A DNA stretch of 64,000 nt, from the NCBI GenBank assembly GCA_019753375.1, contig JAIELC010000027.1:1-64000 (forward strand), written 5' to 3'. The translations under genes were made by a program, and so were the position numbers. The DNA is from Sphingomonas sp. Lineage in GTDB: Bacteria; Pseudomonadota; Alphaproteobacteria; Sphingomonadales; Sphingomonadaceae. Of the stretch, positions 44,879 through 50,539 are shown piece after piece. Below the pieces are notes generated by a model. It saw nothing but the letters and a program-made list of their open reading frames with translations, did not search any database and was not told where the DNA came from. Within the stretch, counting starts at the first letter, position 1. Each line of letters begins with the position of its first letter.

Positions 44879-44893
44879 GAACATAAGTAGAAC
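44879..44893 (+). promoter_or_regulatory. LexA (SOS) box upstream of uvrA
   Basis: GAAC-ATAAGTA-GAAC matches the alphaproteobacterial LexA consensus GAAC/GTTC-N7 direct repeat exactly, and a third GAAC sits eight bases earlier (44867-44870). It ends eight bases before the uvrA ATG, so the transcript leader must be very short. Confidence 0.78.
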
Positions 44894-44901
44894 TTCGCTC
44901 T

Positions 44902-47841
44902 ATGCTGACTCACATAAGCGTTCGCGGCGCGCGCGAGCATAATCTTAAAGACGTTTCGGTGGATATTCCGCGCGACACGCTGACGGTCATTACCGGCCTG
45001 TCTGGCTCGGGCAAGTCGAGCCTGGCGTTCGACACCATCTATGCCGAAGGGCAGCGCCGCTATGTTGAATCGCTGTCGGCCTATGCGCGCCAATTTCTTG
45101 AAATGATGCAAAAGCCCGATGTCGATCATATCGAGGGACTGTCCCCGGCGATCAGCATCGAGCAGAAGACGACCAGCCGAAACCCGCGCTCGACTGTCGC
45201 GACCGTGACCGAAATCTATGATTATATGCGGCTGTTATGGGCGCGGGTTGGGATTCCCTATTCGCCCGCCACCGGTCTGCCGATCTCGGCACAGACGGTC
45301 AGCCAGATGGTCGACCGGGTCATGGCGCTGCCCGAAGGTACCCGGCTGTATCTGCTTGCGCCGGTGGTGCGCGGCCGCAAGGGTGAATATCGCAAGGAGC
45401 TGGCGGAGTGGCAAAAGGCCGGCTTCACCCGCGTCCGCATCGATGGCGACCTGTACGAAATTGATGAAGCCCCCGCGCTCGACAAGAAATACAAGCACGA
45501 CATCGAAGTCGTTGTAGACCGGCTGGTCGTTGGCGCCGACATCGCGACGCGGCTGGCCGACAGTTTTGAAACCGCGCTGAAGCTGGCCGACGGGCTGGCC
45601 TTTGCCGATCTGGTCGATGGCGTCGTGCCGGGCCGTGAGGATGAGGCGCTCGACGCCGGCCAGATGAAAGGCGCGGGCATCCCGCCCAACCGCATCGTGT
45701 TCAGCGAAAAATTCGCCTGCCCCGTATCAGGTTTCACCATCGCCGAAATCGAACCCCGTCTGTTCAGCTTCAACGCCCCGCAAGGCGCGTGCCCGGCGTG
45801 CGACGGGCTGGGCGAAAAACTGCTGTTCGACGAAGACCTTGTTGTTCCCAACCACGCGCTCAGCATCAAAAAGGGCGCGGTCGTGCCCTGGGCGAAATCG
45901 CAACCGCCCAGCCCCTATTACATGCAGGTACTGGGCAGCCTGGCGCGCGAATTCGGCTTCAGCCTTGATACCCCCTGGCAGGATCTGCCCGGCGACGTGC
46001 GGCTGATCATCCTCTACGGCACCGGCGGCAAGCCCGTCACGCTGACTTTTGTCGACGGGCGCAAGACCTATGACGTGAAAAAGCCGTTCGAGGGCGTGAT
46101 CGGCAATCTCAACCGCCGCATGCTCAGCACCGAAAGCGCGTGGATGCGCGAGGAACTGAGCAAATATCAAAGCTCCGCTCCGTGCGAGGTGTGCGGCGGC
46201 GCGCGGTTGAAGCCAGAGGCGCTGGCGGTCAAAGTCGGCATGCGCGACATCAGCAGCATCACCCATTTGTCGGTGGTCGATGCGCTCGACTGGTTTCAGG
46301 CCATTCCGGCTGATTTGTCGCCGCAACAAAACGCCATCGCCGAACGCATCCTGAAGGAGATTCTCGAACGGCTTGGCTTTCTCAACAATGTCGGGCTCGA
46401 TTACCTCAACCTTGATCGCACCAGCGGCACGCTCAGCGGCGGCGAAAGCCAGCGCATCCGGCTTGCCAGCCAGATCGGCAGTGGGCTGTCGGGCGTGCTC
46501 TATGTGCTCGATGAACCCAGCATCGGTCTGCACCAGCGCGATAACGACATGCTGCTCGCCACGCTCCGCCGGCTGCGCGATCTGGGCAATACCGTGCTGG
46601 TCGTCGAACATGATGAAGACGCGATCCGGTCTGCCGATTACATCCTTGATATGGGCCCCGGCGCGGGCGTGCACGGCGGCGACGTGGTTGCGCGCGGCAC
46701 ACTGGCGGAGATCCTCGCAACCACCGGCAGCGTCACCGCCGATTATCTGAACGGCACGCGCGAAATCCCGGTGCCGGCCAAGCGCCGCAAGGGCAATGGC
46801 AAGAAACTGACCGTCCACGGCGCCACCGCCAATAATCTGCGCGGCGTTACCGCCGGCATCCCGCTGGGCACCTTTACCTGCGTCACCGGCGTATCGGGAT
46901 CGGGCAAGTCGAGCTTCACGATCGACACGCTCTACGCCGCCGCTGCCCGCACGCTCAACGGCGCGCGGCTGATCGCGGGTAAGCATGACAAGATCACCGG
47001 CCTCGAATATTGCGACAAGGTCATCGATATCGACCAGTCACCCATCGGCCGCACCCCGCGCAGCAACCCGGCCACCTATACCGGCGCCTTTACCTCGATC
47101 CGCGACTGGTTCGCCGGCCTGCCCGAGGCGCAGGCGCGGGGCTATAAACCCGGCCGCTTCAGCTTCAACGTCAAGGGCGGCCGCTGTGAAGCCTGCACCG
47201 GGGACGGGCTGATCAAGATCGAAATGCACTTCCTGCCCGATGTCTATGTGACGTGCGATGTCTGCCACGGCGCGCGCTATAATCGCGAGACGCTGGAAGT
47301 GAAGTTCAAGGGCATGAGCATCGCCGACGTCCTGAACATGACGGTTGAGGACGCGGTGGAATTTTTCAAGGCAGTGCCCCCCATCCGCGACAAGATGGCG
47401 ATGCTCGCCGAAGTCGGGCTGGGCTATGTCAAGGTTGGCCAGCAAGCCACCACCCTGTCGGGTGGCGAAGCACAGCGCGTCAAACTTGCCAAGGAACTCG
47501 CCCGCCGCTCCACCGGGCAAACGCTCTACATCCTCGATGAACCGACCACCGGGCTGCATTTCGAAGACGTCCGTAAACTCCTCGAAGTGCTCCACGCGCT
47601 GGTCGAACAGGGCAATACCGTGGTGGTGATCGAACATAATCTCGATGTCATCAAGACCGCCGACTGGGTGCTCGATCTGGGGCCGGAAGGCGGCGTAAAG
47701 GGCGGCGAGGTTGTGGCCGAGGGGACGCCCGAACAAGTGGTCAAGGAACCCCGCAGCTTCACCGGCCAGTATCTGAAGCCGCTGTTGGAACGAAAGGCCT
47801 TAACGGCGCGGTCGAAGCGCGAAGAGGTGGCGGCGGAGTGA
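44902..47841 (+). CDS. uvrA: Excinuclease ABC subunit A
   Basis: Damage-recognition ATPase of nucleotide excision repair, 979 aa. Starts [20 protein letters not shown] as in the family. Two ABC modules: Walker [10 protein letters not shown] (residues 32-40) and GVSGSGKSS (~664), each with its signature ([28 protein letters not shown]). Zinc-finger cysteines in [25 protein letters not shown] and CDVCHGARY. No Shine-Dalgarno is seen, and an SOS box abuts the start. The last ~280 bp recur at 48584-48860. The C-terminus ([12 protein letters not shown]) differs from the one encoded by that copy. Confidence 0.97.
47533..47811 (+). repeat. Direct repeat, left copy: 3' end of intact uvrA
   Basis: Pairs with 48584-48860. 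Offset 1051 at the left, 1049 after a 2-base deletion in the right copy. Similarity stops exactly at GGCGCGG before the two copies take different C-terminal codons. Confidence 0.9.
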
Positions 47842-48386
47842 GTTACCGCCCGGAATTCGAAGCCGCCCTCCGCCTGCTCGCTCGAGCCAGCGAGGCAATG
47901 GTGGCACGCGGTTATCAACGCCCAATCCTTGTCGGCGGCGCGGCGGCAGAATTCTGGTCGACCAGCGCGGTCAGCACCGGCGATTTTGATCTCTGCACAC
48001 CGCGCCAGTCCGAACTTGAGGAAGAATTGCAGCGTCTCGGTTTCGTCAAACCGTCCGGACCGGGTATGGCGACGCGGGGCTGGATACATCCTGATCTGGT
48101 TTTGGGTTTTGAAGTCGTTGCCGACGTGCCGATGGACGGCACCGTCGATGCGGCGCGCATCCGCCTCGTTCAGCCTGTTGGTGAGACCGCGCTGTTCCGG
48201 GTGATTTCGGTTGAAGACCTGATCGCCGATCGCATGGGCCAATATGCGTCCGGCACGGCGCGCGACCGGCTTGATCAGGCGCGCTTGCTGCTTGCTCTTC
48301 ATCCCGATGCCGATCTGGAGTATCTCGATCGGCGGATACGCGAAGAAAGCGATGGCGATTATGGCGTCAAGGACATGCAAGGCTGA
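47838..48386 (+). CDS. Nucleotidyltransferase-fold protein (DUF6036/AbiEii-like), possible toxin
   Basis: 182 aa from a GTG overlapping the uvrA stop (GTGA). The [11 protein letters not shown] loop followed by STGDFDL fits the G-G...D-x-D metal site of minimal nucleotidyltransferases. Later, [28 protein letters not shown] resembles the helical segment of AbiEii/DUF6036-type proteins. Such proteins often act as toxins or as partners in two-gene systems. The exact family is uncertain and enzymatic activity unproven. It forms a unit with the 51-codon gene 16 nt downstream and would be read from the SOS-controlled uvrA promoter. Confidence 0.65.
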
Positions 48387-48402
48387 CGTTGCGGAGGGGC
48401 AG

Positions 48403-48558
48403 TTGCCAGTCATCGACATGGCAGCAATGGGTCAGCGCATCGCCGCGCGCAAAGCCGCTCTTGGCTTGCCCGATCTGCCCCGCAACAGCGGCAAGCGCCG
48501 CACGGCGAGCAAGCAGGCGTTGCTCAAAGCGATTGAGGATGCGGGTGGAGATTGGTGA
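48403..48558 (+). CDS. Small 51-residue protein, partner of the nucleotidyltransferase-like gene
   Basis: TTG start at 48403 supported by GGAGG five bases upstream; an ATG at 48418 would give 46 residues. Basic and helical: [19 protein letters not shown], then [23 protein letters not shown]. No family recognised. Close spacing to the preceding gene and small charged character resemble an antitoxin or accessory subunit; this is inference. It ends 25 bp before the second uvrA 3' copy. Confidence 0.5.
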
Positions 48559-48583
48559 GTTTAGCAAGCTGGCACCCCAATTT

Positions 48584-48875
48584 CTCGATGAACCAACCAC
48601 TGGCCTGCATTTCGAAGACGTCCGTAAACTCCTCGAAGTGCTCCACGCGCTGGTCGAACAGGGCAATACCGTGGTGGTGACCGACCATAATCGATGTCAT
48701 CAAGACCGCCGACTGGGTGCTCGATCTGGGGCCGGAAGGCGGCGTAAAGGGCGGCGAGGTTGTGGCCGAGGGGACGCCCGAACAAGTGGTCAAGGAACCC
48801 CGCAGCTTCACCGGCCAGTATCTGAAGCCGCTGTTGGAACGAAAGGCCTTAACGGCGCGGGCAGCGGTCGGATGA
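48584..48875 (+). pseudogene. uvrA 3'-end fragment, frameshifted duplicate
   Basis: 277 bp nearly identical to 47533-47811. It begins mid-gene (CTCGATGAACC), carries a few substitutions in the first 60 bases (ATCGAA to ACCGAC among them) and a 2-base deletion near 48690 that breaks the frame. Past the repeat the original uvrA frame runs into GCAGCGGTCGGA and stops at 48873-48875, i.e. a C-terminus TARAAVG, probably an older natural end of uvrA here or in a donor. No start site, so not expressed as protein. Confidence 0.88.
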
Positions 48876-48912: not shown

Positions 48913-49131
48913 ATGACAGCGCGCGTGGTTATCGATCCGGAAGTATGCGGCGGTCGGCAGATCGTCGCTGGCACACGCATGCGGGTCAGCGACGTGCTCG
49001 ATGCGTTAGCGTCATCCGTCAGCATGGAGGAATTGCTCGGCGATTTTCCATATCTGACGCGCGAAGATGTCATCGCTTGCCTTACCTATGGCGCCCGCGC
49101 GGTTGATCATGCGGTGGTGCAAGCCGCCTGA
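48913..49131 (+). CDS. DUF433-family antitoxin-like protein
   Basis: 72 aa. Short beta strand and HTH-like helices with the family sequence [30 protein letters not shown], then a [22 protein letters not shown] helix. DUF433 proteins are antitoxins paired with PIN-like DUF5615 toxins encoded just downstream. Here the partner starts at 49131, overlapping the stop by one base, but is cut short after about ten codons, so this is an orphan antitoxin. Confidence 0.85.
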
Positions 49132-49194
49132 TGCGGTTGCTGGTCGATGCCCAGCTTCCGCTTCACCGATGCCACCGTGATCATCCGCGCCTCT
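49131..49194 (+). pseudogene. Truncated DUF5615 (PIN-like) toxin start fused to a fragment of the SRAP gene
   Basis: Opens with [10 protein letters not shown], the usual N-terminus of DUF5615 toxins, in the expected position after DUF433. From 49150 the DNA instead matches the SRAP gene at 49994-50038 (43 of 45 bases) in another frame, and no toxin domain follows. The join lies at the shared CCCAGC-TCCG, suggesting microhomology recombination. Confidence 0.7.
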
Positions 49195-49244
49195 ACCAAA
49201 CGCGCGTGGCTTTTGCGCGTGGACCTAAGGCGATCCCGCCTTCA

Positions 49245-49523
49245 TTACAGGCCCACGGCCTTGCGCAGCGCCTCGTTCATCCGTCCCTGCCAGCCCGGCC
49301 CACCCTCCCGGAATTTGGCGATTACATCAGGGTCAACCCGTAACGTCACCTGCTGCTTCGCCACGCCGCGGATCGGCGGGCGGCCCGCCGTGCGCCACGC
49401 GCCGGGGCGGATGACCTGATCGCCGACGCGCACTTCGGCGCTGTCGAACATCTCCTGAGTCCATTCGGGCGCGTCGTCGGGGTCAACCCAGCCGCTGGCC
49501 AAACCAGCTTTGTTCTCGCTCAT
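49245..49523 (-). CDS. brnA: BrnA-family antitoxin
   Basis: 92 aa. The C-terminal half is a ribbon-helix-helix-type segment KQQVTLRVDPDVIAKFREGGPGWQGRMNEALRKAVGL, typical of BrnA/DUF4415, and the N-terminal half with WTQEMFDSAEVRVGDQVI is the toxin-contact part. Its ATG lies inside the 3' end of brnT (41-nt overlap). BrnA neutralises BrnT and represses their joint promoter. Confidence 0.85.
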   Translation of the reverse strand: MSENKAGLASGWVDPDDAPEWTQEMFDSAEVRVGDQVIRPGAWRTAGRPPIRGVAKQQVTLRVDPDVIAKFREGGPGWQGRMNEALRKAVGL

Positions 49524-49755
49524 TGCATTTCCTCATCGAAATAACGCGACGACCGGTTTTGGTCTCCGCCCACACTACCATCACCAGTCGTTCGTCGAGC
49601 AGGCCAAAAGTCTGGAACCGGGCTTCCGCATAATCGAACCGGTCATCCGGTTGCGTATAGGTCAGCCCCGCGAACAGCCGCGGCGCATCGGCGAAATCCA
49701 GACCGCGCTCGGACAACGTCTTCTTGCGCTTGGCAGGGTCGAAACTGATCTCCAC
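49483..49755 (-). CDS. brnT: BrnT-family ribonuclease toxin
   Basis: 90 aa, GTG start at 49755. BrnT pattern: ISFDPAKRKKTLSERGLDFADAPRLF, DDRFDYAEARFQTFGLLDERLVMVVW, and C-terminal RVISMRKCNEREQSWF with the conserved Arg/Lys cluster. A RelE-like fold RNase that inhibits translation. Toxin precedes antitoxin, the normal BrnTA order. A good promoter lies immediately upstream. Confidence 0.87.
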   Translation of the reverse strand: MEISFDPAKRKKTLSERGLDFADAPRLFAGLTYTQPDDRFDYAEARFQTFGLLDERLVMVVWAETKTGRRVISMRKCNEREQSWFGQRLG

Positions 49756-49882: not shown

Positions 49883-50539
49883 ATGTGCAATGAAGCTGCT
49901 CGCCGCATCGCTCTGGGTCAGCTCCGCGATGATTGGTCGCAACTGAAGATCCCGCTGCGTTTTCCGGAGGGCGCGCCCAACATGGCGCCCTTGCCCAGCA
50001 TCCGCATCACCGATGCCACCGTGATCATCCGCGCCTCTGCCGAAGGCGCGGCCCCCGGCGTTGGGCTTGGCGCTGGCACCGGGCTTGCCGCCGAACTCGT
50101 CTCACGGCGGTGGAGCTGGCCGATGGGCGGCAAAATGGGCAGCAAGCCGCTGTATAACTACCGCAGCGAGGGGCGCAGCTTTGCCAATAGCGCGACCGGC
50201 GGGCGCTGCCTGATCCCGGTGGATGGTTTTTATGAATTCACCGCGCCCGTTGATCCGGCGCAGAAGCGCAAGACCAAATGGATCTTCACCCCCGCGCCCA
50301 ATGGTCCGCTAGCGGGTGACTATCTGTGCATCGCCGGGCTGTGGCGCGCCGATGCGGCGGTGGGGGAAGCCTTTACGATGCTCACCTGTGATCCCGGCCC
50401 CGATGTCGCGCCCTATCATGCGCGGCAAGTGGTGCTGATGCCGCGCGCGCATTGGGGCGACTGGATTGGTGGGGTGGTGCCCTCTGCCGATCTTATCGCA
50501 CCGGCGGCGGCGGGGTCGTTGCTGGTCGCGCGGGTGTAA
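49883..50539 (+). CDS. SOS-response-associated peptidase (SRAP / YedK-HMCES family)
   Basis: 218 aa from ATG 49883, chosen so that the essential cysteine is residue 2 (MCNEAARR): SRAP proteins crosslink Cys2 to abasic sites in single-stranded DNA. Other family parts: WSWPMGGKMGSKPLYNYRSEG, GRCLIPVDGFYEF, and a His in APYHARQVVLMPRAHWGDW. An upstream in-frame ATG at 49814 would bury the cysteine. Lies in the same accessory stretch as uvrA and the toxin-like genes. A 45-bp part (49994-50038) is duplicated at 49150-49194. Confidence 0.9.
   Translation: MCNEAARRIALGQLRDDWSQLKIPLRFPEGAPNMAPLPSIRITDATVIIRASAEGAAPGVGLGAGTGLAAELVSRRWSWPMGGKMGSKPLYNYRSEGRSFANSATGGRCLIPVDGFYEFTAPVDPAQKRKTKWIFTPAPNGPLAGDYLCIAGLWRADAAVGEAFTMLTCDPGPDVAPYHARQVVLMPRAHWGDWIGGVVPSADLIAPAAAGSLLVARV
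49994..50038 (+). repeat. 45-bp SRAP segment duplicated at 49150-49194
   Basis: 43 of 45 bases identical; the two differences are T/A changes in the first 15 bases. It encodes PSIRITDATVIIRAS in SRAP. Confidence 0.85.

Follow-up and report, generated by a model that had tools for sequence, protein, structure and literature searches.

Why does the 3' end of uvrA occur twice, on either side of two small genes, in a Sphingomonas sp. contig? The stretch analysed, referred to here as the window, comprises the first 64,000 nucleotides of contig JAIELC010000027.1 (assembly GCA_019753375.1), and the two genes encode a predicted nucleotidyltransferase (NTase) and a protein of 51 codons (p51). A sequence-only reading of the window had proposed that the NTase-p51 cassette arrived together with a replacement uvrA end and pushed the old end aside. 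Small defence genes that lack an integrase are common and their movement is poorly explained. Given the comparison with relatives described below, the uvrA end probably acts as a docking site at which defence-like genes settle, and we consider, with moderate confidence, that a hotspot anchored by homology at the uvrA 3' end and operating without an integrase fits the data best.

The intact uvrA gene (979 aa) occupies positions 44902..47841 on the plus strand. The repeat search confirmed what had been noticed by inspection, namely that the stretch 47533..47811 within the gene recurs 1.05 kb downstream, at 48584..48860 on the same strand. The repeat measures 279 bp and the copies are 97% identical, which is far beyond chance. 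The first part (47533-47641 versus 48584-48692) shows 95% identity and the remainder (47642-47811 versus 48691-48860) 100% (170/170 nt), and as the start-to-start spacing goes from 1051 to 1049, the second copy carries a 2-bp deletion. All 5 substitutions and the 2-bp gap fall in the first 110 alignment columns; the resulting difference-free run of 169 has a p of 0.024 when differences are placed uniformly, a weak sign that conversion may have occurred between the copies. Their ends are also as first read: the intact gene has a specific tail (SKREEVAAE and stop, 47812..47841, plus strand), whereas the fragment runs to TARAAVG, its own tail being AAVG and a stop at 48873-48875 (48861..48875, plus strand). 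Between the copies lie the NTase gene (182 aa, 47838..48386), of which the GTG start overlaps the uvrA stop, and, after a gap of 16 nt, p51 (48403..48558; TTG start, ending in Trp-stop), both on the plus strand. A 25-nt joint (48559..48583, plus strand) separates the p51 stop from the displaced or duplicated uvrA fragment. The insert is flanked in this way by long direct repeats of its target, and the view that it consists of these two genes was borne out, as the remaining listed open reading frames (ORFs) all overlap one or the other. No recombinase was found between the window's copies, where NTase and p51 stand alone; the search for recombinases did not extend to other inserts. In the host genome (2.6 Mb, 158 contigs, 88% complete) the repeat stretch matched nothing but itself and an internal ABC repeat of uvrA, the latter at 67%.

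The NTase tends to be found at this address in relatives as well. In the genus sample (151 genomes drawn from 295) a match was present in 34 genomes, that of the window included. For the other matches covering at least 150 of the 182 residues, 23/27 were located within 0.3 kb behind uvrA on the same strand and the other 4/27 lay elsewhere or on contigs lacking uvrA; three of the 27 had an in-frame stop. A second set was made up of named NTase loci (the best 80 of 143), with record titles that include Sphingomonas, Sphingobium, Novosphingobium, Qipengyuania and Sandarakinorhabdus. Here uvrA was found upstream of the NTase, on the same strand and within 6 kb, in 55/80 loci, in some of which 1-3 kb of other sequence separates the two, and p51 adjoined the NTase in 79/80. 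Considering the longest ORF only, no single upstream neighbour was common to the loci inspected for this (18 of the 25 named loci without uvrA and 6 with uvrA 1-3 kb off); small groups of them do have one in common, and some of the 25 have little upstream sequence. In L197 the ORF 5' of the NTase resembles, as read by eye, a nucleotide-binding defence protein. Locus L218 (record RPSH01000002.1), titled Bacillus sp., contains a Sphingomonas-like uvrA and NTase and probably stems from a mislabelled or contaminated assembly.

Relatives also carry broken uvrA ends. The survey for these covered 136 loci (the window plus 135 others of the 151 genomes; E below 1e-4) and recovered a uvrA 3' fragment downstream of the intact gene, on the same strand, in 21 of them, one of which (L146) was a lone weak match at a distance of 10 kb and likely due to chance. 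When restricted to the first 2.5 kb downstream of the intact gene, the count was 20/129, versus 0/40 for a uvrB control (Fisher p 0.004) that was made with 40 query ends, against 136 in the uvrA count; when 40 uvrA loci at a time were drawn at random and searched with the 40 ends belonging to them, the draws yielded 5, 7, 8, 8 and 12 fragment loci. Among other genes inside the fetched loci, five clusters gave 4/87, and a sixth (C0) gave 27/53, which was provisionally attributed to ill-defined ORF ends of length-based calling (ORFs near uvrA were called on length and conservation alone) and set aside. Directly behind p51, a uvrA fragment was found in 5/80 named loci. The search was extended to 90 loci, namely 78 named loci, the window and another 11 from the genus; these last were chosen manually, in part for an already known fragment. 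Two pairs in the set are identical in sequence. In this set uvrA-like sequence occurred within 300 nt past p51 in 11/90 loci, with eight stretches longer than 130 nt, versus 5/87 for a control stretch with matches of 27-35 nt. The eight long fragments start 0-63 nt after the p51 stop, at differing uvrA positions, and in G244 the uvrA-like letters begin, as read by eye, immediately after it. Fragments behind the cassette are thus present in several species. In genome G033 (L058), which is a single contig, there are two, one after p51 and another around 10 kb behind uvrA that is closer to the uvrA of G047 (91%) than to that of G033 itself (87%); two fragments in one genome is what one would expect of repeated events.

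Could the NTase and p51 simply be an ancestral pair of the sphingomonad uvrA operon, inherited vertically and often lost, with the uvrA fragments being unrelated local duplications? Such a history would account for the equal spacing, in many species, of the overlap between the NTase start and the uvrA stop and for the NTase or p51 remnants near uvrA in L083, L084, L088, L156, L171 and L188. It is nevertheless unlikely in view of the distances. At the 39 loci with an adjacent uvrA, NTase and uvrA distances were nearly uncorrelated (rho 0.11-0.28), versus 0.81 for the two uvrA halves and 0.54 for the NTase halves, and several pairs differ by 6-9% in uvrA and by 41-45% in the NTase; in addition, there are the four genus genomes in which the NTase is remote from uvrA or on a contig that lacks it. 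A vertical operon as the sole explanation was rejected on these correlations, and vertical divergence throughout the relatives, the case that the sequence-only reading had named as fatal to it, was not what we observed, as the NTase is present in a minority of the sampled genomes and is discordant with uvrA. In the pair L218/L260, uvrA differs by 6% and the NTase by 43%, and the last uvrA stretch merely by 1.7%. Taken together, the discordance and this pair indicate that the NTase-p51 pair moves and that the uvrA end need not accompany it.

A rival reading that concerns the window only takes the second uvrA 3' end for the product of a recent tandem duplication in place, or for a duplication made during assembly, and has to be considered, the more so because 170/170 nt are identical, the overall identity is 97% and the host assembly is incomplete (158 contigs). 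We regard this as rather improbable: the copies differ by their 5 substitutions, the 2-bp gap and their unlike ends, the same architecture was encountered in other assemblies, G033 included, and fragments follow p51 in other species. Genome G142, moreover, has the same order of NTase, p51 and a diverged uvrA fragment, later followed by BrnA, BrnT and SRAP. The arrangement of an intact gene, cargo and a displaced end is also that of islands by which the target is restored. A site-specific integrative element with its attachment at the 3' end of uvrA could have reconstituted the gene and shed its integrase afterwards. Agreeing with this are a joint at q378 of the uvrA stretch in four genomes and a hairpin-bearing joint that marks a recoded uvrA 3' end. 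The latter was found once each in 5/295 genomes (pattern search with up to 2 mismatches), in four cases directly behind uvrA (L089, L116, L119 and L143); in the fifth, G028, the hairpin opens one contig (contig 12) and uvrA closes another. Given the single occurrence per genome, the idea that the hairpin is a dispersed repeat was dropped. Considering, however, that the fragment starts vary widely along uvrA among the NTase loci and that the window cassette contains two genes only, we hold an integrative element to be very unlikely.

If the cassette came in by recombination, the question is which of the two uvrA ends is foreign. Two relatives are informative in this respect. The uvrA of G056 is, before the breakpoint, nearest to that of G026 (92.3%), and when compared to G026 the 106-nt fragment scores 96.2% and the intact end 52.5%. 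In the fragmented assembly of G012 the nearest uvrA is that of G145 (92.6%), with 93.9% for the 66-nt fragment and 68.7% for the intact end. These similarities indicate that in both genomes the intact end is the newcomer and the native one was pushed aside, which supports for these two the replacement that the sequence-only reading had put forward. The best matches to the foreign ends were from genomes whose uvrA bodies lie near the genus median (0.852-0.889 versus medians of 0.852-0.875). The two copies of the window are about equally distant from every relative compared and point to neither end as the replacement, and G142 does not discriminate between them.

The cassette is not the only cargo at this place, in agreement with the expectation that other genes would occupy the same point. 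In 86 loci without the NTase, 119 uvrA-proximal ORFs matched 388 PADLOC models and 119 distal ORFs (4.5-9 kb), nearly equal in total length, matched 8, figures that count model matches and not systems, with one protein matching 58 models and the commonest model being found in 8/119 ORFs. The proximal set consisted of 119 of the 199 listed ORFs after removal of widely conserved clusters, whereas the distal set was random and lacked that filter, and the contrast is therefore somewhat tilted. Names among the proximal ORFs include AriA, PtuA, GajA, Old and dCTPase, and the Pfam matches AAA_15, GmrSD_N, NACHT, RVT_1 and DNA methylase, next to non-defence matches such as FecR. ORFs belonging to clusters of at least five genomes made up 31% in the first kb and 56-66% at 1-6 kb; as the figure drops to 31% again at 8-9 kb, this profile is weak evidence for local turnover. 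Variable and defence-rich cargo does adjoin a conserved gene here, as is characteristic of a core defence hotspot.

For the integrase-free, homology-anchored hotspot that we favour, the following course of events can be envisaged. DNA from another sphingomonad would pair with the conserved part of the uvrA 3' region and cross over there, and its other end would be joined illegitimately a short way behind p51, within the uvrA end of the recipient. The illegitimate character of this right joint is suggested by the variable fragment starts and the short joints past the p51 stop, both of which were seen. The donor would supply a uvrA end, by which the gene stays whole, and the end of the recipient would be left behind as a dead fragment, a step for which G056 and G012 provide the similarity and the window is uninformative. 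The cassette would then be part of the uvrA transcription unit, and further cargo, of the composition observed, would land at the same place by the mechanism proposed, to give a hotspot with a turnover of defence-like genes. If uvrA homology were left to either side of the cargo at every insertion, the cargo could move on. Tentatively, then, the uvrA end might even constitute a self-perpetuating dock without an integrase, from which cargo moves by ordinary recombination into any uvrA and at which newcomers on the same strand become wired to the SOS response.

Several observations weigh against the homology-anchored hotspot, or at least narrow it. The intact end is the vertical one in G060, G140 and probably G051, and 79/90 NTase loci lack a visible uvrA fragment. 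No near relative of the window was found with an empty or a donor site; relatives with a single uvrA end exist, none of them close, and the empty site that the sequence-only reading had predicted, a uvrA ending in TARAAVG, does not occur among the tails that were listed for the genus loci retrieved. Among species pairs with similar uvrA bodies, to which the comparison was restricted, the divergence of the uvrA tail was 0.150 for 20 pairs with NTase alleles that differ by 28-45% versus 0.152 for 26 pairs with similar alleles, and the correlation with NTase distance, followed along uvrA, shows no increase toward the 3' end. Given the lack of such an increase and the equal tails, uvrA ends and cassettes are not generally inherited together; neither of these two tests gave a sign that NTase alleles as a rule bring a uvrA 3' end along, and a new uvrA end can no longer be regarded as a necessary companion of the cassette. 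Furthermore, two joint types recur in several genomes, one at q378 of the uvrA stretch and the other around q262-300, a pattern that would also result from a site-specific process, and a purely illegitimate right joint leaves its closeness to p51 unexplained. Finally, 39/108 loci without the NTase have a first ORF behind uvrA that is read from the opposite strand, and such cargo lies outside the uvrA transcript.

The last point bears on the proposal that the cargo is placed under the SOS-controlled uvrA promoter. A GAAC-N7-GAAC motif, which we take to be the SOS box, was present within 200 bp upstream of uvrA in 47/47 testable named NTase loci, and in 0/47 stretches within uvrA. In the window, the motif match is a predicted LexA/SOS box of the alphaproteobacterial direct-repeat type, located just 5' of uvrA (44879..44893, strand not assigned). 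With the box in place and the NTase start overlapping the uvrA stop, the structural part of the proposal holds, and co-expression of NTase-p51 with uvrA and induction by the SOS response are predicted from this arrangement.

As to what the cassette encodes, the NTase had no match in Pfam or NCBIfam with E up to 1 and a weak match to AbiEii in PADLOC (E 0.02). Its predicted model has the fold of the nucleotidyltransferase toxins MenT and AbiEii, a fold that is common also to ANT(2''), and the protein is accordingly described here as a MenT/AbiEii-like nucleotidyltransferase that is predicted to be toxin-like. For p51, its conserved partner, nothing above cut-off was obtained in Pfam, PADLOC or NCBIfam. 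Carriage by a phage or plasmid was considered and set aside, with two weak matches among plasmids and no relative confirmed among viral contigs.

Downstream of the uvrA fragment the next cargo in the window is a DUF433 gene (48913..49131, plus strand; PF04255, E 2.5e-20). A short ORF at 49131-49343 runs into a 59-nt piece (49148-49206) that is 92% identical to the interior of the SRAP gene (49992-50050), and represents a second partial gene duplication in the same interval as the uvrA repeat. The BrnA/BrnT toxin-antitoxin pair is located between this piece and SRAP, on the minus strand (49245-49523 and 49483-49755), and many genus loci have further BrnA/BrnT-like matches at around 1-5 kb downstream of uvrA.

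If the own end of a core gene acts as the anchor, as it appears to do, it would provide a fixed address at which new systems can be sought across an order, and with uvrA as the anchor same-strand cargo would be tied to the SOS response, which is triggered by DNA damage. Our literature search recovered no description of the uvrA 3' end as a docking site. A Pectobacterium phage protein that binds UvrA appears in the part of an abortive-infection study used here (PMC5377504), where the uvrA locus is not the subject. Four known systems come closer. For the C-terminal tips of rhs genes, the portion of the source drawn upon proposes that displacement is driven by homologous recombination within the core region, with a circle as intermediate (PMC2935791). 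The outcome described there is alike, with an intact gene that has a variable end, displaced 3' pieces downstream that include core parts of varying length, and intervening genes that are carried along. Unlike rhs, uvrA is a housekeeping repair gene and not a polymorphic toxin with an immunity partner, what varies is the cargo that lies behind it, and the uvrA end pushed downstream looks dead. The displacement of effector-immunity modules of the Vibrio cholerae type VI secretion system, which perhaps involves homology-facilitated illegitimate recombination, shares the single homologous anchor, the one illegitimate joint and the old 3' part moved downstream, with repeated events building arrays, as far as the excerpted source goes (PMC5361080). 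There the resemblance ends: at the present locus the anchor is uvrA, the cargo is both defence-like and toxin-antitoxin-like and there is no apparent reason to keep the displaced part. Restriction-modification genes have been described to insert with a long target duplication (Nobusato 2000, cited in PMC3031569), and in the passages concerned a small defence-like unit likewise lies between long and variable direct repeats of the target; what differs is that uvrA is reused as the target across many species and for different cargo. In the core defence hotspots of Pseudomonas aeruginosa, for which the section used here proposes exchange via homology of the flanks (PMC10250203), variable defence cargo also adjoins conserved genes, whereas at the sphingomonad locus the flanking gene, uvrA, itself bears the scars of recombination.

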